Positions 30,148 through 61,613 of a DNA stretch of 63,309 nucleotides are shown here, one piece after another (the stretch's first letter is position 1; the number at the start of each line of letters is the position of its first letter). A program made the translations under genes and the position numbers. The DNA comes from a virus. Below the pieces are notes generated by a model. The model worked only from the letters and a program-made list of their open reading frames with translations. It was not told the DNA's origin and searched no databases. The DNA lies in the IMG/VR virus record IMGVR_UViG_3300036846_000911, positions 1 through 63,309 of that record; one strand, given 5' to 3'.

Positions 30148-30244
30148 GCCCCGGCGTTCGAACACACGTCTAGTTGAGTGTAGGGGACTCAACTCTGGGG
30201 ATTCGGCGAGAGCCCTTCTCTCAAAAATCGACCTTCGCATCGCC

Positions 30245-30691
30245 ATGACAAGTCTTTAACCATCGGCCGACAGGGGCTGACCTGCGGCTATGACAGGAAT
30301 GACAGGAATGACAACTTTCCCGGAAACCGATGATACGTGAAAGGTTCTTCATCGAGACCGTCGAGACGAAACGGCGCCACACGGGCAAGGATTCGAGAGG
30401 GGGCCATGACAACTTTGAGCGATTTGCAACCAGCTCCTAGAGTCTCTTCTATGTCATCTATTATCTCCTATTACTCTCACTACCCTACTTTCACGCAATA
30501 GTTGTCATAGTTGTCATGGACTGTAGGAAGTGCCAGGTCAGAGGCCGAATTTCACAGTGACGAAACGCGCCTGAGAGTTGTCATGCATGACAGGAATTTT
30601 CGTCATGGGACGGTAGATGGCAGAGTGTCAAAATGTCCGCAGATAGGCGATGGTTTCTGACACCAGGGTCCCATGACAAGAATCCATGACA
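30245..30691. repeat. iteron-like ATGACA repeats around an AT-rich patch
   Basis: ATGACA or its complement occurs 12 times: plus orientation at 30245, 30290, 30299, 30308, 30406, 30587, 30673 and 30686; minus at 30452, 30503, 30512 and 30579. Three are in exact 9-base tandem (30290, 30299, 30308) and two more are 9 bases apart (30503, 30512). ATGACAACTTT occurs three times. Between them 30421-30480 has only 24 G or C out of 60, far below the rest of the window. This is the layout of an initiator-binding region or a multi-site operator; no gene overlaps it convincingly. Confidence 0.55.
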
Positions 30692-30871
30692 ACTTTCTCC
30701 ATGGATTTGAGGGCTACCATGTCCGCTTCATGCCCCGATGTCCGTTTTAGAATGATGACGGCTCCGCCGTCCCATTCGAAAACGGACACCAGGTCCTGAA
30801 TCGGACATGGTACGCGGGGGGGCCGCGATGTGAGCTTGCTCACGTCGCGACGGCCTTGACAGTGAGAGCGC

Positions 30872-30908
30872 TCGATGTCCGTTGTCGCTTCGCGACAACG
30901 GACATCGA
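30872..30908. repeat. 17-base perfect inverted repeat, 3-base loop
   Basis: TCGATGTCCGTTGTCGC and its exact complement are separated by TTC. The stem is long and G+C-rich. It lies six bases before a second, larger palindrome. It could be a cruciform, protein-binding site or stable RNA hairpin. Confidence 0.7.
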
Positions 30909-30913
30909 TGCCT

Positions 30914-30951
30914 CGCTCCACTATGGAGCGCATGCGCTCCATAGTGGAGCG
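30914..30951. repeat. 38-base perfect palindrome
   Basis: The left half is CGCTCCACTATGGAGCGCA and the right half is its exact complement, with no spacer. Each half itself contains a nested CGCTCCA/TGGAGCG pair, so four copies of the same heptamer in alternating orientation are present. This suggests a binding site for a tetrameric or multi-dimer protein, or a resolution or origin element. Confidence 0.75.
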
Positions 30952-31486
30952 TCAGCTAGGGGCGGTACTGACATGCGGTCAGTATCGGACAACGGCAGCG
31001 AGGGCTGAACCCGTTGCATGTCAACGCTTTCCGCCATCACTCGCGCCCGGTATGCACCGATATGAGTGCGTGCCACGTCCACATTGGACATGCTTGCGTT
31101 GACCGCAAGCCGGACTGTCCACCTGCGACACGTGCACGGGCCTGCCTGGCGAGCGCCCCATTCGATGTCCCGTGCTGCCCCGTTGTCATGCCCGTCGATG
31201 TCCCCCAGGCTGCCATGCTGTGACGTGCTTCGATGCCGCGTGCGCCGTGTCCAGGTACATGCGTCTATGCCCTTGGCCGGCCGCGGCCTGTCGCATGTGG
31301 ACACCCGTCCAGGTACACCCGTCGATGTCCTGGCCGCGTCTCGCGTGGTGTAGGACCGTCCACCCGCGACCCTCGCACGCTACCGCCCCACCGCTAGCGT
31401 GAGTAGGAATCCTGGCCAGCTGTCAAGCTGCGGAAATGTGGGATAGCCGACACCCGACTTGCTACCGGAATCGCGCAATTAACGAC
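30952..31486. other. non-coding stretch with repeated short words
   Basis: I see no convincing gene here. Short words recur: CCCGTCGATGTCC-like at about 31190 and 31319, and GTCCAGGTAC at about 31249 and 31304, the latter reappearing in complement at 34743-34752 and 34773-34782. Around 30988-31022 the words GGACAACGG and CCCGTTGC resemble the structured intergenic element found downstream. It may be a leader or control region for the 31.5-34.7 kb island. Confidence 0.35.
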
Positions 31487-31498
31487 TAGGCTCACGGT
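31487..31498 (+). promoter_or_regulatory. -10 element of a leaderless promoter
   Basis: TAGGCT (31487-31492) lies six bases before the ATG at 31499, the spacing expected when transcription starts at the first codon. The same spacing and a shared CGGTATG junction occur at 35180-35192. No good -35 is visible at 17-18 bases upstream. Confidence 0.4.
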
Positions 31499-31873
31499 AT
31501 GACTTCCACACAGACACCCGCTAGCGGGTACGCGCCGCGCCCGGCCACCATGCGCACCATCATCGGCGAACAGCTGGCCTGGCAGGCTGAGGCTGAAACC
31601 CTCGCCGTTGCGCTCTCAGCCGCTATCCGCAGCGACGCGTCCCCGTCCGCGTACACGGACATCCTTGACAACCTTGCCTACGCGATCTTTCAGGGCTGGT
31701 CGGCCGAATGCGGTTTCGAGTCCGACGCTGACGCGTGGGACGTCGTCGAAGAGTTCTGGCAGGCAGGCCGCACGATCGCTAGCGCCATCGACTCACGCGC
31801 GGTGTACCGGGCGGAACTCGCTCACACCCTCGCGATCTACGGCACGATCAACTGGACCTCCGTCCAATCCTGA
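31499..31873 (+). CDS. hypothetical protein, 124 aa
   Basis: First gene of the low-G+C island. It is mainly helical and Ala-rich (EQLAWQAEAETLAVALSAAI), with aromatic residues in the second half (AIFQGWSAECGFESDADAW). No family recognised. Translation probably starts at a leaderless ATG. Structured element 1 begins four bases after its stop. Confidence 0.6.
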   Translation: MTSTQTPASGYAPRPATMRTIIGEQLAWQAEAETLAVALSAAIRSDASPSAYTDILDNLAYAIFQGWSAECGFESDADAWDVVEEFWQAGRTIASAIDSRAVYRAELAHTLAIYGTINWTSVQS

Positions 31874-31877
31874 CTAT

Positions 31878-31934
31878 CCGGCCACTCGTGGTGGACAACG
31901 GGCGCGTAGCCCGTTGCCTGCCATGTCCGACCGG
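31878..31934 (+). promoter_or_regulatory. structured intergenic element, copy 1
   Basis: The 57-base element starts and ends with CCGG. An apical hairpin CAACGGGC / GCCCGTTG closes a five-base loop; below it CGTGG pairs with CCATG. The right-hand side CCGTTGCCTGCCATGTCC is identical in all four copies, while the left side and loop vary with pairing kept. It sits between two same-strand genes. Confidence 0.75.
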
Positions 31935-31959
31935 ACAACCAACCGAACGGAGTCTTGAC

Positions 31960-32550
31960 ATGGCACAGGAATCGGCCGAATCGCTGACCAGCGCGTTTAT
32001 CGGCAAGGCTGACGACACGGAGTGGCGCGCGGTTACGCGTGGCGACATCCGCTACCGCACAGCCAACGGCGCGCCAATCGTCGACGGTATGCGCGCATTC
32101 AACAACAACCTTGACGTCACCATTGTCCGCGTGACGCGCGGCGCCGTTCCCGGTAGCGAGTTTCACGCGAGTTGGGATGGCTGGTTTGAGTGCGAATCGG
32201 TTACGGGCGAGCGCATGCCGATCATGGATGGCGAGCGCTTGACGACGCGTCACCCGTTTACGGGTGAGCGTGCCGACGATGCCGCGCGCGTGGCTATCGC
32301 TGATTTGGACCGTTGGGATTACGCGCGGAGCATGACAGAAGCGCTCGATTGCGTGAAAGAGGAACGCGCGCGTTTGCTGTCCGAACGTCGGTCGAATTTG
32401 GGCTATGCCGTAGCTGACTTGGATTCGCTGTGCGCGCTTTACGGTCTAACTGCCCTGCAAACGCGTGACCTTATGGCGTACGCGCTCGGCTGGCCAGTTG
32501 ACGAATTGCCGATTGTTGAGCCTAGGGCAATCCCGTATCCGTTGGCCTAA
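31960..32550 (+). CDS. hypothetical protein, 196 aa
   Basis: It begins MAQESAESLTSAFIGKADDT and has a beta-rich first half and a helical second half (DLDSLCALYGLTALQTRDLM). Not recognised. A 60-base sample of this gene (32161-32220) has 36 G or C, clearly lower than the flanking phage genes. It lies between structured elements 1 and 2. Confidence 0.6.
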   Translation: MAQESAESLTSAFIGKADDTEWRAVTRGDIRYRTANGAPIVDGMRAFNNNLDVTIVRVTRGAVPGSEFHASWDGWFECESVTGERMPIMDGERLTTRHPFTGERADDAARVAIADLDRWDYARSMTEALDCVKEERARLLSERRSNLGYAVADLDSLCALYGLTALQTRDLMAYALGWPVDELPIVEPRAIPYPLA

Positions 32551-32555
32551 CCACC

Positions 32556-32614
32556 CCGGCCACTCGTGGTGGACAACGGCGCGATTCGCTCCGTTGCCTG
32601 CCATGTCCGACCGG
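32556..32614 (+). promoter_or_regulatory. structured intergenic element, copy 2
   Basis: 59 bases. Outer CCGG/CCGG, middle CGTGG/CCATG, apical CAACGG/CCGTTG extended by GCG/CGC around an ATT loop. It starts five bases after the upstream stop and ends 31 bases before the next ATG. Confidence 0.75.
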
Positions 32615-32645
32615 ACAACCAATCGCACAGCAAAGGAATGCCGCC

Positions 32646-33623
32646 ATGTCACAGCACACCATCGACTACCTGAACGAAAACACGCTCATTGGTTTCACGG
32701 GCATGCGTGGCAACGCGTGGACGTGGAAGGCCGGTACGGACAATCACTTTGCGGGTGAGGTACCAATGGAGCGCGTACTCCAACTGTTCGCGTGGGAGCC
32801 GACCGTCAATCTGATGGTGTGCCCTTGCGGTTGTGGGGAAACGTGGAAAGCGGTTTCGCGTTCCGACAACCGGCACCGCATGGGTATCTTCAAAGAGGGC
32901 TACGAACCGCACTCTTTCAAGACGTGGCTCGTGGAAGCGGTCGGGACCATTCTTGACGACACGCTCCGTATCGGTTCGGCCGGTCAGCTGCGATTCGGTG
33001 CCGTCGGTTGGGTATCGGCCGAGACTCCCGACACGCTCACTACTCCGGAGGGTGTCGATTTCCGGCCACACTTGCTGGCGACGACGTCTTTTGACGGGAG
33101 CGTTGCCACGACCTATAAGCCGGTCGTGACACGCGTGGTGTGTGACAACACGTTGGAGATGGCAAAGCGCGAAAACAGCGCGACGTACAAAATCAAGCAC
33201 ACGCGCAATAGCGGTTTCCGCGTGGCCAGTGCGCGCGATGCGCTCGGAATCGTCCACGCCGTTGCGGAAGACTTTGAGGCGGAAGTACGCGAGTTGTGCG
33301 CGACTACCGTCACAGAGAAGCAATGGGCTGCATTCCTTGACGCGTACGCGCCGATGCCGGATGACAAGGGTCGTGGCCGCACGATTGCCGAAAACAAGCG
33401 TGACGGTTTGGCGCGCATGTACCGCCACGACTTGCGCGCAGCTCCATGGTCGGGAACGGCTTTCGGTGTGTTGCAGGCGGTTGACACGTGGACGCAACAC
33501 GAACAGACCGTGCGCAACGTCGGACGGGCAGAGCGCAACATGCTCTCCATCGTGACGGGCAAGCACGCGAAAGCCTCTGATGAGGTAGCGACCACGCTGC
33601 GCAAGGTACTTGCCTCTGTCTGA
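32646..33623 (+). CDS. DUF932 / phage-plasmid-like protein
   Basis: The protein has 325 aa. The centre (LATTSFDGSVATTYKPVVT, RVVCDNTLEMA) is diagnostic of DUF932, a family on plasmids and phages of unknown biochemical role that often lies near DNA metabolism or plasmid-maintenance genes. An N-terminal CPCGCGETWK may bind metal. The C-terminal half is helical. The ATG has AAAGGAATG upstream. It is the only gene of the island with a recognised domain. Confidence 0.82.
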   Translation: MSQHTIDYLNENTLIGFTGMRGNAWTWKAGTDNHFAGEVPMERVLQLFAWEPTVNLMVCPCGCGETWKAVSRSDNRHRMGIFKEGYEPHSFKTWLVEAVGTILDDTLRIGSAGQLRFGAVGWVSAETPDTLTTPEGVDFRPHLLATTSFDGSVATTYKPVVTRVVCDNTLEMAKRENSATYKIKHTRNSGFRVASARDALGIVHAVAEDFEAEVRELCATTVTEKQWAAFLDAYAPMPDDKGRGRTIAENKRDGLARMYRHDLRAAPWSGTAFGVLQAVDTWTQHEQTVRNVGRAERNMLSIVTGKHAKASDEVATTLRKVLASV

Positions 33624-33628
33624 CGATT

Positions 33629-33682
33629 CCGGCCACTCATGGTGGGCAACGGGGCAACCCGTTGCCTGCCATGTCCGACCGG
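33629..33682 (+). promoter_or_regulatory. structured intergenic element, copy 3
   Basis: 54 bases, the most compact copy. The apical stem GGCAACGGG/CCCGTTGCC closes a GCAA tetraloop of the stable GNRA class. The middle stem is CATGG/CCATG, where copies 1 and 2 have CGTGG, so a G-U pair is replaced by A-U with pairing kept. Confidence 0.78.
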
Positions 33683-33713
33683 ACTACCGATCACCCGTAC
33701 AGAGGAAACGCAC

Positions 33714-34184
33714 ATGACTACCGACACCGAACCGACCGTGACCGTTCACCCTATGGCAATGGGAGTGTTGCGCGCGATTGCCAGCGACTTGGAGGCAATC
33801 GGCGACACGATCGGACGCGAATCTACGGTGTACCGCGCAATGTCCGACTCGTGGCTACGCGCTTCCGGTAACGTCTGGCGACTCTTGGAGGGTGGCGGTT
33901 CACTCTCCCGTGACGATTCCCGTTCCCTGTATATCGTGACCGGCTACGGCATGCATGTGGGAGTCATCTTTTTCGCCGATCGCGACACCTACAAGGACGC
34001 AATGGTGGCAGGGACCGATCCGATGATGCCGCACGTGAACGCGTGCAGTCGACACAACGGCGCTGCCTACCCGTCGACTACGGAGCATTGCGCCGGTCAT
34101 CCTGGCGAAGGTGCACCGGTACGGGAGTCGTTCTGTATCCGTCGCACCATTCCGATGCCCGGTACATGGAGCCTGCACTCCTGA
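33714..34184 (+). CDS. hypothetical protein, 156 aa
   Basis: It starts after AGAGGAAACGCAC. The N-terminus is helical (MGVLRAIASDLEAIGDTIG), the middle is a beta-rich segment (SLYIVTGYGMHVGVIFF), and the C-terminal third is rich in Cys, His and Pro. Not recognised. Lower G+C than flanking regions. Confidence 0.6.
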   Translation: MTTDTEPTVTVHPMAMGVLRAIASDLEAIGDTIGRESTVYRAMSDSWLRASGNVWRLLEGGGSLSRDDSRSLYIVTGYGMHVGVIFFADRDTYKDAMVAGTDPMMPHVNACSRHNGAAYPSTTEHCAGHPGEGAPVRESFCIRRTIPMPGTWSLHS

Positions 34185-34249
34185 CCGGTCGGACATGGTG
34201 AGCAACGGCGCGATTGCGATTCGCTCCGTTGCCTGCCATGTCCGACCGG
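34185..34249 (+). promoter_or_regulatory. structured intergenic element, copy 4
   Basis: 65 bases, beginning at the base after the upstream stop. Here the outer arms CCGGTCGGACATGG and CCATGTCCGACCGG are fully complementary (14 base pairs), whereas copies 1-3 have an internal loop. The apical stem GCAACGG/CCGTTGC is extended by GCGA/TCGC. Confidence 0.78.
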
Positions 34250-34280
34250 ACTACCGATCAACTCAGCGAAGGAAACGCAC

Positions 34281-34526
34281 ATGAGTACCCACCAATCGCG
34301 CCGTACGGGCCGCACGCGTGCCCGGATGGCTGCCCTAGCCTTGTCTGCCTCTTTGCTCTCTACGGGCGCGTACGGCGCCGTGACTGCCCTTGCCGACCCT
34401 CGCCCGTGGATAGCGTGCGGTCCCGGAGCGTGTACGGCTGGTGTCGACGTCCACGGGTACGCGGTCAGCATGGCTGTGCTGCGGAGCGCTCCGGTCGTTT
34501 CCGTCGTGATCGGTGCCGACCGATGA
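34281..34526 (+). CDS. small secreted or membrane protein, 81 aa
   Basis: A basic N-terminus (MSTHQSRRTGRTRARM) is followed by a hydrophobic segment (AALALSASLLSTGAYGAVTA) and a possible signal-peptidase site ALA-DP. The remaining 40 residues contain two Cys (IACGPGACTAG). It looks like an exported small protein. Its stop overlaps the next start. Confidence 0.6.
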   Translation: MSTHQSRRTGRTRARMAALALSASLLSTGAYGAVTALADPRPWIACGPGACTAGVDVHGYAVSMAVLRSAPVVSVVIGADR

Positions 34527-34717
34527 TGCGCGCGCGACGTCGTGAGGCTGTCAGCCTGGCTCTCGCCGCTGTGCTCGGTATCGGTCTGTACGCCGCAGGA
34601 TTCACCCTCCGACCGGAGTGCCAGGCCAGCCGCTGCGAGTTGCTGGTGAGCGCTCCGGGTGAGGCATGGCTGGCGGTTGGCATGCATGGCTGGCACCCGT
34701 ACGCGGTTCACAGCTGA
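34523..34717 (+). CDS. small secreted or membrane protein, 64 aa
   Basis: A basic N-terminus (MMRARRREA) is followed by a hydrophobic helix (VSLALAAVLGIGLYAAGFTL) and a short tail with two Cys. It is translationally coupled to the preceding exported protein, so the pair may act together. Function unknown. Confidence 0.58.
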   Translation: MMRARRREAVSLALAAVLGIGLYAAGFTLRPECQASRCELLVSAPGEAWLAVGMHGWHPYAVHS

Positions 34718-34726
34718 CCTTGGTTC

Positions 34727-34798
34727 GCACGCGTGAACGCGTGTACCTGGACGACCGTCGCATGTGGACGGTGTACCTGGACACGCGTTCACGCGTGC
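34727..34798. repeat. 18-base perfect inverted repeat flanking paired GTACCTGGAC words
   Basis: GCACGCGTGAACGCGTGT (34727-34744) and its exact complement (34781-34798) bracket two direct copies of GTACCTGGAC. The same word occurs in complement twice near 31.25-31.31 kb. The right arm ends at the base before a TTGCGC -35 element, so this is a candidate operator or terminator-promoter boundary. Confidence 0.6.
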
Positions 34799-35118: not shown

Positions 35119-35158
35119 AAGCTGGCACGGTGTGGCCTAGCTCACACCGTGCCAGCTT
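35119..35158 (+). terminator. perfect hairpin abutting a promoter
   Basis: AAGCTGGCACGGTGTG and its exact complement around an eight-base loop. It ends inside the -35 of the next promoter. It may terminate the upstream transcript or act as an operator for the downstream one. Confidence 0.65.
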
Positions 35159-45205: not shown

Positions 45206-45553
45206 ATGGCGCCACAGTCGTACCCGTTGACCCTGTACCGGGGTGACACGTTCTCGTGGCGATTCGTGTTCTGGAATGACCTGGACCGCACAATCCCGTA
45301 TGACCTGACCGGGGTCACACCAGCCGCGCAGATCCGGGCTACGTGTCTGCTGATGACGTTGGACTGCACAGTGTTGCTGCCGAACACTGTCGCCGTCGAG
45401 CTGCCCGCCGATGCGTGGCCGCTGAGTTGGCCGGCGCTGACCGCAGCCGGTTGGGATCTTCAACTGACCCAACCGGACGGCACGGTGCACACCATGGTCG
45501 CCGGCCCGGTGTACGTCACGACCGACGTGACCCGGCTGGTGGGTGCGCCGTGA
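45206..45553 (+). CDS. tail/baseplate-associated protein (BppU-like)
   Basis: The protein has 115 aa, ATG after GGGAGAG. The pattern [20 protein letters not shown], then [16 protein letters not shown] and [16 protein letters not shown], is like the N-terminal beta-sandwich of phage baseplate upper proteins that attach fibres. It is directly coupled to the collagen-like fibre gene, which supports a fibre-anchoring role. Confidence 0.72.
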
Positions 45554-46797
45554 CCGCGCCCGCCGTGATCGACGTCATCGTCGAGGCGTCGCCGATCTAC
45601 ATCGACGTCATCGACCAGTCCGGACCGCCCGGCCCGGTGGGTCCCGCCGGCCCGACGGGGCCGCCCGGTCCCGCTGGCCCGACCGGCGACCCCGGCCCGA
45701 TCGGGCCGCAGGGACCGCAGGGCGATCCCGGTGCGACCGGTCCGGCGGGTGATCCTGGTCCGACTGGTGCGACCGGCGACCCCGGTCCGCAGGGGCCGAT
45801 CGGCCCGACCGGCAACACCGGCCCAGCCGGGCCGACCGGACCGGCGGGTGATCCTGGCCCCACGGGTCCAACTGGTACGACTGGTGCCACCGGCGATCCT
45901 GGTCCGCAGGGGCCGATCGGACCGACCGGCAGTACCGGCGCGCAGGGGCCAATCGGCAACACCGGCGCGCAGGGGCCGATCGGCGACCCTGGCCCGCAGG
46001 GGCCGGCCGGTAACACCGGCGCGACCGGCCCGGCCGGCGCGACTGGCGCGACTGGCGACCCCGGTCCGCAGGGGCCGACCGGACCGACCGGCGACACCGG
46101 CCCGCAGGGGCCGATCGGGCTGACTGGTGCCACCGGCGCGACCGGCGACCCCGGCCCGATCGGACCGCAGGGCGACCCCGGTGCGACCGGCCCGGCCGGT
46201 GCGACGGGTCCGGCTGGCCCGACCGGCGACCCCGGCCCGCAGGGACCGGCGGGCGCGTGGGACGGGTCGTGGCGGCCCGTCGACCATGCCTTGATCTCCT
46301 GGATGTACGACCCGGCGGTGACGTCGAATTTCTCGTCGGCGTTGCAGGGTGCCGGGCAGATTCAGTTGATGCGGCTGCACATCCCGGCGGCAACAAACGT
46401 CACCGGGATCACCGTCTACCTCGCCAACGGTGGCGCCGGGCTTGTGGCGGGTCAGTGTTGGGCGGCGCTGTTCGACGCGGCCACCGGGAATCTGATCGGG
46501 GTCACCGCCGACCAGGCGACGAACTGGGCGTCGGCCGGCGCGAAACGGATGGATCTGACTGGTGGCCCGTTTGCCCGGCCGGTCGGGGACGTGTACGCCG
46601 GGTTGGTGTTCAACGGCACCACCAGTCCGAACGTCACCCGGCAGGCGGCCGGCGCACCGGCGCTGATCAACATCAATTTGGGGACGGGGTCGACGTACCG
46701 GTACGGGTTGACCACCGCCACGTACACGACGGCGCCGCCGTCAACGCTGGGTGTGCGGGGTATCGGCTTCCACTCGTTCTGGGCGGCGCTGCACTGA
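45550..46797 (+). CDS. collagen-like tail fibre protein
   Basis: The protein has 415 aa, GTG start at a GTGA overlap. After 24 residues, about 70 Gly-X-Y triplets run uninterrupted to about residue 235, rich in GPT, GPQ, GDP, GPI and GAT, predicting a triple-helical shaft. Residues 240-415 form a beta-rich head ([20 protein letters not shown] and onward) that probably binds the cell surface. The DNA of the shaft is a near-repeat, prone to length change by recombination. It is encoded about 40 kb from the main tail operon. A strong terminator follows. Confidence 0.88.
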
Positions 46798-59735: not shown

Positions 59736-60233
59736 TCCAACCTCCACATCGTGCACTTTTCACGAACCGGACATCCGGGCCGTTTCTGAACGAAACGTGA
59801 CTGTAACGGAAGTTCACGGGTTGTGACAAGCTAACTACTGCCCGTGAGTGGATGTTGGCACGACACGACGACCGCGATCGATCCGAACGGAGATCCGGGG
59901 ATCGGGGCCGTGCAGGCGAACGGGGTGTTGACATCCTCCGTGTTGACGAAGTGTTGCCTGCCAACTAGTGTCAACATGCAGCGGACATAAGGGCCGCAAA
60001 ACGACACGACAAGAGTACCAAAAGGTACGTACTGAAGTACCTAAAACAACACTAGAACAGCATAAATGCAGGTCAAAGGGTTGGAACTATACGCATTCAA
60101 TCCCAGTATCGCCCACCGCTTTGACCTGCGGAAACGCGAAAATGGACGACAAGCTGCCAACACTGTTGTCAACACCGTCACTGGCAGGTAGTGCAGCTCG
60201 TTGATCCCTGACGCCGGATGCAGGGAGAACAAA
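59736..60233 (+). promoter_or_regulatory. integration control region, attP candidate
   Basis: This gap between divergent excisionase-like and integrase genes has no convincing gene and is relatively A+T-rich. It contains GTGTTGAC/GTCAACAC-type words at about 59920-59980 and again at 60160-60175, a perfect split repeat GCAGGTCAAAG (60068-60078) / CTTTGACCTGC, and AGGTAC/GTACCT. These resemble arm-type integrase or excisionase sites. The crossover core cannot be identified without the host attB. Confidence 0.5.
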
Positions 60234-61613
60234 ATGGCAAGTATCGTGCGCCGATTCAACCCGATCGCCTTCCGCGTCGTGTGGCGCGAGAAGGGTCTGC
60301 CGGGGCAGCAGGGACGGACGTTCCACACCCTGCCGGAGGCGAACCTGTTCCTCAAACTCGTTCAGGGCGAGGGGCGCGGCAACGACCGGATGCCCCCCGA
60401 CGAGGTGCTGCGCCGCTACGGCCTACTGCCCACCGGGTCGGGCGTGAAGGTGGAGCACGAGCAGCGGGGCGACCAGGTGACTGTCGTTGAGGCGGTTCGC
60501 CGCTACGTGGACGAATACCTTGCCGGCAAGCCCGAGCGGACCCGGCCGGCGGAGCGCACCCTCAAGGAGTACCGCTCGCTGTACCGCAACTACATCCTGG
60601 ATTCGGTGCTGGGCCAGTTCGATGTGGCGAATGTCGATGGCGAGCAGATCGAGCAGTGGGCCACCGAACAGTCCGGTCGGCAGCGCCGGGATCGGCGGGT
60701 CGACGAATCGGGTGCGCCGGTCCTGCTCTCCGCCGTCTCCATCAACAAGGCGATGACACTGCTCTCCGCCATGTTCAAGTGGGCAATGATGGGCATCTCC
60801 GGTCCGCGCGGGACGGATGGGCGTCGGATTCCGCTGCGGCGAATGGGTGGCAACCCGACGCTGGAGGTGGAGCGCGTCAAGGTGCACAAGAACGAGGAAG
60901 ACGAGAAGGCGGTGCTGTTCAACATCGCCGAATACGAGGCTTTCCTGCGGGCCATCTACGTGGTCGATCCGACGTGGGCGGACATGGTGGCGGTGACCAT
61001 GTTCACCGGAAGCCGGTTCGGTGAAATCACCGCACTGCGGGTGGAGCAGGTCGATTTCGACCTGGAGGTAATCAACTTCGACCGCCGTATCTCGGCGGGC
61101 AAAGAAGAAGGCGGTACGAAAGGTTCCAAGCGCGCCCCGGAAACTTGGATCAAGCGCCGCGTCCGTGTCCCCCAGGCGGTGATGACGCTGCTGCGGGCTC
61201 GCTGCTTCACGGCGAATGGCCGCCGTAAGCCGGGAACCGATTTCGTGTTCGACGGACCGGAGTTTTCGACGAACAAGCGGTGGTCGCCGGCATCGGACAA
61301 CGACCGTTGGGTACGCCTGGAACCGATACTCGACCTGTTCGAGTTGAACCGGCACTTCCGCCACCACAACATGCGGCACAGCTACGTGACGTTCCTCCAG
61401 GATCACGGCATCCCCGAAGTGATGGTCGGATTCGCGGTCGGCCACCGGGGCAAGTCGATGTCGGTGACGGGTCGGATTTACACCCACGTCACGCCAGAAA
61501 TGTGGACGAAGATTGTCAACATCTGGACTCCAGTCACCCGAGAGTTGTTGCAGATTCGGGAAAAGGGCTACGCCGCGCTTTTTGAGCGCCGCCTGCTGAG
61601 TGTGGCGTCGTAG
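60234..61613 (+). CDS. int: tyrosine recombinase / phage integrase
   Basis: The protein has 459 aa; the ATG at 60234 has AGGGAGAAC upstream. The N-terminal arm-binding region (ASIVRRFNPIAFRVVWRE) and the core-binding domain (VDEYLAGKPERTRPAERTLK and following helices) precede a catalytic domain with FTGSRFGEITALR (Arg I), HNMRHSY (His/Arg II), VGHRGKS (His III) and nucleophile Tyr near residue 416 in GRIYTHV. It integrates phage DNA by strand exchange between attP and attB. It is divergent from the excisionase-like gene, with a strong terminator after it. Confidence 0.94.
   Translation: MASIVRRFNPIAFRVVWREKGLPGQQGRTFHTLPEANLFLKLVQGEGRGNDRMPPDEVLRRYGLLPTGSGVKVEHEQRGDQVTVVEAVRRYVDEYLAGKPERTRPAERTLKEYRSLYRNYILDSVLGQFDVANVDGEQIEQWATEQSGRQRRDRRVDESGAPVLLSAVSINKAMTLLSAMFKWAMMGISGPRGTDGRRIPLRRMGGNPTLEVERVKVHKNEEDEKAVLFNIAEYEAFLRAIYVVDPTWADMVAVTMFTGSRFGEITALRVEQVDFDLEVINFDRRISAGKEEGGTKGSKRAPETWIKRRVRVPQAVMTLLRARCFTANGRRKPGTDFVFDGPEFSTNKRWSPASDNDRWVRLEPILDLFELNRHFRHHNMRHSYVTFLQDHGIPEVMVGFAVGHRGKSMSVTGRIYTHVTPEMWTKIVNIWTPVTRELLQIREKGYAALFERRLLSVAS

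Follow-up and report, generated by a model that had tools for sequence, protein, structure and literature searches.

Repeats that lie in the gaps between genes and are anchored to start codons are well documented in actinobacteriophages (PMC3203893, PMC11373665, PMC7953290, PMC7302621). Those of cluster K, the SAS and ESAS, have arms without compensatory changes, and the ESAS holds a putative promoter (PMC3203893, PMC11373665). In cluster M, stem-loops are situated upstream of CR3 and CR4, according to the summary in PMC7953290, which cites Pope et al. 2014 for them. Among Microbacterium phages, clusters EC and EI possess repeats, EF has SAS/ESAS-like motifs and EG inverted repeats; such sequences also occur in cluster O mycobacteriophages (PMC7302621). 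The four-copy element described here is by its layout a gene-gap repeat of this known kind and, judged by its sequence, a member of none of these groups.

The window, which is the whole 63,309-base IMG/VR record that was analysed, has a G+C content of 66% and the gene content of a tailed phage of actinobacteria, with matches to major head and tail proteins, a primase/polymerase (38% related to Arthrobacter phages) and a tyrosine recombinase. No close relative of the contig was found among the collections searched, and IMG/VR protein searches with the capsid, gene 2 and gene 4 proteins revealed no kin. The operon of interest consists of six + strand genes between 31.5 and 34.7 kb, of which only gene 3 (DUF932/TIGR03299) is recognisable. 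The features of the operon and of the two gaps beyond it are:

31499..31873, + strand: gene 1, 124 aa, no Pfam, PHROGs or NCBIfam family match
31878..31934, + strand: element copy 1, 57 nt, type A left arm, loop GCGCGTAGC, fold z -3.65
31935..31959, + strand: leader after copy 1, 25 nt to the ATG
31960..32550, + strand: gene 2, 196 aa, weak match to PHROG 8476 (E 1.3e-5), function unknown
32556..32614, + strand: element copy 2, 59 nt, type A left arm, loop CGCGATTCGCT, fold z -3.51
32615..32645, + strand: leader after copy 2, 31 nt, RBS AAAGGAA
32646..33623, + strand: gene 3, DUF932/TIGR03299 phage-plasmid protein, 325 aa, Pfam PF06067 E 6e-43, TIGR03299 E 4e-66
33629..33682, + strand: element copy 3, 54 nt, type A left arm, GCAA tetraloop, fold z -6.07
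33683..33713, + strand: leader after copy 3, 31 nt, RBS AGAGGAAAC, common to copy 4
33714..34184, + strand: gene 4, 156 aa, no relatives found
34185..34249, + strand: element copy 4, 65 nt, type B left arm, near-perfect inverted repeat, fold z -10.39
34250..34280, + strand: leader after copy 4, 31 nt, RBS GAAGGAAAC
34281..34526, + strand: gene 5, 81 aa, stop overlapping the gene 6 start and so with neither gap nor element
34526..34717, + strand: gene 6, 63 aa, from the ORF list
34727..34798, + strand: unrelated strong inverted repeat in the gap after gene 6, 9 nt past the stop, z -5.2 / -8.5
35119..35158, + strand: unrelated strong inverted repeat in the following gap, after gene 7, z -6.8

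The third-position G+C of genes 2-4 is approximately 0.68-0.72 as against 0.85-0.9 in many other genes of the window, and the DUF932 block may therefore have been acquired. Kin of the DUF932 protein were found in IMG/VR (45% and 35%) and on an Embleya plasmid (47%); a search among its relatives for a solved structure found none, and a single-sequence structure model had a pLDDT of 35 and was useless. Upstream of the operon lie 1.3 kb of non-coding DNA (30160-31490) with repeated motifs TGACAACTTT/AGTTGTCAT and dense inverted repeats (30715-30812, with 40-nt arms; 30872-30908 and 30914-30951, both perfect), which resembles an origin or control region. A gene at 45343-46797 contains many 9-nt periodic repeats (GGACCGACCGGC...) and codes for collagen-like Gly-X-Y.

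The first-pass annotation had placed the four elements at the above positions in four successive + strand gaps, each with CCGG at both ends, and in this it was correct. They do start close to the preceding stop codon, 4, 5, 5 and 0 nt past TGA, TAA, TGA and TGA, where one to six bases had been claimed; they lie in the gaps but do not fill them, as had also been claimed, for leaders of 25, 31, 31 and 31 nt come after. The invariant right side proved longer than had been noticed: the right (3') arm, CCGTTGCCTGCCATGTCCGACCGGAC, is 26 nt in length and identical in all four copies, extends past the CCGG and is itself followed by ACMACCRAYC. When the copies are aligned from stop to start, the inner CAACGG/CCGTTG is invariant, the apical loops vary, and the left arm is of two types, A in copies 1-3 and B in copy 4. 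Duplication has included the leader: beyond the hairpin, copies 1 and 2 have ACAACCAA in common and copies 3 and 4 ACTACCGATC, the latter pair also sharing the RBS and first codons (GGAAACGCACATGASTACC).

Compared with dinucleotide shuffles, the single-strand folds of all four elements are significant (z -3.5 to -10.4), and both DNA strands fold about equally well. In the window the covariance model R1 finds only the four element sites and, more weakly, their reverse complements, since the elements are inverted repeats; its scores drop from 84 bits to a next best of 21.5. With four full-length copies and these z values, the element is not a product of chance. Two further ideas were rejected. 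A leader peptide beginning at the ATG of the frozen arm (MSDRTT...) would have frames of inconsistent length (11, 51, 66 and at least 100 codons), all but the shortest of which enter the next gene out of frame, and the case for strand-specific RNA selection from G-U pairs fails since both strands fold equally.

The four-copy finding is real as a repeat and was over-read as covariation. The left side and loop had been said to vary while pairing was kept; in fact, compensatory covariation is absent, none of the 25 helix pairs changing on both sides (17 invariant, one with a one-sided change, seven departing only through unpaired cells), and the covariation score of the four-row alignment is not above that of shuffles. 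The middle stem, CGTGG or CATGG opposite CCATG, displays a one-sided G-U/A-U change, and the apical stems, which had been taken for compensated pairs, are instead wholesale loop replacements; the apical regions of copies 2 and 4 have GCGATT...TCGCT in common and differ by one 6-nt duplication. Changes in the left arm make or break pairs one-sidedly, two-sided ones being impossible because the right arm is frozen. Four outer positions of copy 4 (5, 7, 8 and 9) depart from type A, and each of them pairs with the unchanged right arm. Copies 1-3 all have type A, yet by its leader copy 4 belongs with copy 3; the ancestral left arm is therefore more likely to have been type A, and the near-perfect stem of copy 4 looks like a one-sided, template-directed correction of a quasi-palindrome and not like compensatory evolution. 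Covariation as the mark of a functional RNA is thus contradicted by the copies themselves, and there are no homologues to rescue it; this argument for a functional RNA falls, while the conclusion itself may still be right. A more general caution is that an alignment of recent duplicates can mimic covariation.

The covariance-model search for homologues that had been suggested, carried out with R1 on every locus and on complete DUF932 phage records, returned chance matches only, the best in the phage records being 20.5 bits (Cuke), which is at chance level; at the loci of the DUF932 kin (IMG/VR, Embleya plasmid) nothing exceeded 14.4 bits. No exact 18-mer of the element was present in IMG/VR. 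The pattern CAACGG-N-CCGTTGCCTGCCATG gave three matches in 84,980 species genomes and three in IMG/VR; each of the four inspected (L017, L026, L027 and L028) is inside or overlaps another ORF, and their scores are at background level, the best 17.3 bits (L017). A 400-genome phylum scan with DUF932 was empty and uninformative. None of these searches, which covered viral, phage, plasmid and genome collections, turned up a homologous element, and to judge by them it is confined to this contig. The remark that no named family resembles it is right for Rfam, to which the window has no match above the gathering threshold, but the kind was already known from clusters K, M and O and from Microbacterium clusters EC, EF, EG and EI.

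Close to the stop codon, six of the seven gene ends in the operon have a strong hairpin (z -2.7 to -8.5), and the seventh overlaps the next gene. Elsewhere in the window, where the gene calls are approximate, 6 of 54 gene ends have a z below -3 and the median is -0.2. Since genes 6 and 7 are followed by hairpins of unrelated sequence, what the gaps share is a hairpin rather than one sequence, and the presence of a hairpin at every real operon gap and few elsewhere favours a role for the hairpin at the gap as such. No sigma-70-type promoter match was found between 29.7 and 35.4 kb, none of the four copies precedes a U-tract, and a terminator scan finds nothing at the elements; neither new initiation nor standard termination would therefore explain them, and the attenuator reading of the first-pass annotation is left unsupported on both counts.

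Our preferred explanation, held tentatively and with rather less than even confidence, is that a single polycistronic transcript of early type is punctuated between its cistrons by the four elements, acting as hairpins. The mRNA directly after each stop codon would fold into a stable hairpin of 20-27 bp, which would protect or define the 3' end of the preceding, just-translated cistron, either as an exonuclease barrier or as a site cut by RNase III or another RNase specific for double strands. It would leave a short standard leader and RBS for the next cistron, with the start 25-31 nt downstream. Element and leader would have spread from gap to gap by duplication, and the frozen 3' arm would represent either recent copying or the part recognised by a protein. 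The positions, the spacing, the folding potential, the duplication together with the leader and the single hairpin in each real gap of the operon are observed; transcription across the gaps, folding in vivo, and protection or processing are what we infer. In its favour are the anchoring of the element at both ends (0-5 nt from the stop; 31, 31, 31 and 25 nt from the start), the duplication of leader and RBS together with the hairpin, the same stop-hairpin-RBS layout in almost every gap of the cluster M phage Diminimus, and, in five other mycobacteriophages, a tRNA-minihelix version within the DUF932 block. The natural readers of tRNA minihelices are RNA-processing enzymes. Against it are the lack of covariation and of homologues, a frozen right arm which, including as it does bases unpaired in copies 1-3, exceeds structural need, and the helices of copies 1-3, whose interruption by an internal loop is not ideal for RNase III. 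With both DNA strands folding about equally well, there is no sign of selection on the + strand RNA in particular. A repeated structured intergenic element that probably acts on the expression of each cistron in the DUF932 operon, as originally proposed, is still the best reading, without its covariation basis.

That equal folding also keeps a DNA role alive. The first of three rivals still in contention, though we regard it as unlikely, is that the elements are operators, the inverted repeat in each gap being a DNA site for a phage repressor or activator that contacts mainly the frozen half-site CCATGTCCGACCGG. The 3' arm is kept as sequence even where it is unpaired, and the window contains 27 occurrences of ATGTCCG/CGGACAT, of which 13 fall within 30.6-34.3 kb and several inside the upstream non-coding inverted repeats (30715-30812 and 30872-30908). 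The authors of the cluster K study preferred DNA binding for the ESAS, inverted repeats also lacking compensatory changes (PMC3203893). The left half-site, however, is not conserved as sequence, with four or five of 14 outer positions breaking the palindrome in copies 1-3; rigid anchoring to stop and start is unnecessary for an operator, and there are no promoter-like sites. ATGTCCG/CGGACAT is in its own right a candidate binding motif common to the control region and the four elements.

Next in order, and doubtful, are partial terminators or attenuators which lack a U-tract and grade expression down the operon. Strong GC-rich hairpins immediately past stop codons would suit such a function, and in the cluster K phage Adephagia transcription ends in a gap with a predicted hairpin, before an ESAS/SAS gene (PMC11373665). 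The missing U-tracts and negative terminator scan speak against it, as do gaps without a promoter match, across which efficient termination would silence the downstream genes. Scarcely less probable than this, and ranked just after it, is that the repeats are neutral by-products, left when one intergenic cassette was recently duplicated in the course of mosaic gene shuffling, and are at most short stretches of homology for recombination. The 26-nt identity with the duplicated leader and RBS, the grouping of the leaders as (1,2) and (3,4), the quasi-palindrome correction that best explains the copy 4 stem, and the confinement of the element to one contig all agree with this; but between unrelated genes the element still begins 0-5 nt past the stop and ends 31 nt ahead of the start, loops have diverged where arms have not, and strong hairpins, unrelated ones included, are present in all real operon gaps. 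Integron attC-like sites, where each gene and its downstream hairpin would form a mobile cassette, are very improbable: there is a same-strand array of small genes, each with an imperfect hairpin after it, and a phage tyrosine recombinase gene at 60201-61613, but the outer ends are CCGG...CCGG with no RYYYAAC/GTTRRRY core sites, the recombinase is 26 kb away and scores 20 bits against an integron-integrase cut-off of 265 bits, and leaders and RBS downstream of the hairpin are common between copies, which a cassette junction would not produce.

Other DUF932 blocks carry a different structure. In Cuke, most gaps of the 30.0-38.9 kb block contain, on the coding strand only, unannotated tRNA-like minihelices made up of an acceptor-like stem and a T-arm totalling 11-12 bp, with the T-loop TTCRANY followed by AC, and a joining strand with a conserved GG recalling the D-loop. 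They mostly lie a few nt past stop codons, and a second hairpin and RBS come after them. A mechanical scan of Cuke recovered 15 minihelices and the true tRNA-Lys, which served as an internal control, and nothing on the opposite strand or in shuffles. There are 12 in Fowlmouth, 11 by scan in Indlulamithi (one outside the block), nine in Send513, six in Konstantine and one in Madraxi. Their locations are:

Cuke MG757156, L029 30011-34274, coding strand: minihelices, from the scan
Locus L030 61-4424, coding strand: minihelices
Fowlmouth, L035 4640-12630, coding strand: minihelices
Indlulamithi, L036 4931-12271, coding strand: minihelices, from the scan
Send513, L034 416-6872, coding strand: minihelices
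Konstantine, L033 974-6875, coding strand: minihelices
Madraxi, L009 5079-5121, coding strand: one minihelix

A related tRNA-like minihelix occupies the gap after the DUF932 gene in the Rhodococcus phages REQ1 (L007, 5051-5144), Madraxi (L009, 5069-5157) and Jflix2 (L031, 7069-7157), those of REQ1 and Jflix2 having been recognised by eye; it has the form GCCCTG...CAGGGC with a T-arm, and in REQ1 ACCA comes next. Among 23 ungapped copies of the minihelix, 9 of 11 pairs change on both sides (covariation score 0.95 versus 0.12-0.16 for slid controls); since pairing was a requirement of the scan, it is the shuffle and strand controls that guard this result against selection. The covariance model R2 recovers minihelices in all five mycobacteriophages (Cuke, Fowlmouth, Indlulamithi, Send513 and Konstantine), with E values as low as about 1e-12, and has no match to them in this 63,309-base window. 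ARAGORN and Rfam miss them where tried, and no publication on them was found. Minihelices resemble the element in the layout of stop, structured RNA and RBS within DUF932 blocks, and differ from it in their acceptor stem and T-arm with T-loop and in their strong covariation; they are the better candidate for a new class of structured RNA, possibly representing RNase P/Z punctuation of phage operons. Mitochondrial transcripts are punctuated by tRNAs, and phage operons would be punctuated in much the same manner if the minihelices were cut by RNase P or RNase Z. It is a distinctly speculative and improbable extension that DUF932 actinobacteriophages punctuate the cistrons of one operon by unrelated devices (frozen-arm hairpins, cluster M stem-loops and, in Cuke, Send513 and Konstantine, tRNA minihelices), all serving one phage-directed system of mRNA processing or stability, possibly with a protein of the block recognising the frozen 3' arm.

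Of the described repeats, the cluster K ESAS is similar in combining a repeated inverted repeat with start-proximal sequence in the gaps of non-structural genes, in having one arm better conserved, and in the absence of compensatory arm changes. The ESAS has a SigA-like promoter, 17-bp arms and a short spacer, whereas the element has no promoter match, longer arms and is anchored to the stop; the 13-bp SAS (GGGATAGGAGCCC) found beside cluster K start codons is absent from the element leaders, as read directly. Intrinsic terminators likewise place a GC-rich hairpin past the stop codon, but here the U-tract is missing and ACMACCRAYC comes after the hairpin. The repeats of Microbacterium and cluster O phages are also short or inverted repeats in gaps, 14-30 bp upstream of starts (PMC7302621), and in the EC genus Quhwahvirus the DUF932 gene adjoins them as it does in the element operon; they differ in sequence, are shorter and are mostly not hairpins of such length. 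In the Rhodococcus phage Trogglehumper (L008) a start-associated repeat, CACTCACCGAATCG...AAGGGAGACAA, precedes several genes, including those around the DUF932 gene (gaps at 1252, 1417, 2332, 3908, 5072 and 5538). Nearly every gap of the DUF932 block of Diminimus (OR521083; L014 970-8037) has a stop-proximal hairpin, different in sequence in each gap, and then CACGGAGAAGGGA, which fits the cluster M stem-loops with CR3/CR4 as outlined in the summary cited above. The element and the cluster M arrangement are alike in having a stem-loop past the stop and then a start-proximal sequence or RBS, in successive gaps of a block with a DUF932 gene. They have no sequence similarity, R1 finding nothing in the Diminimus record, and in Diminimus the stems vary widely by gap and the start-proximal repeat is constant, whereas here it is the 3' arm of the stem that is constant. 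The element contributes a further, independent sequence solution to a puzzle that recurs among actinobacteriophage genomes, that of cistron-separating repeats anchored to stop and start codons.
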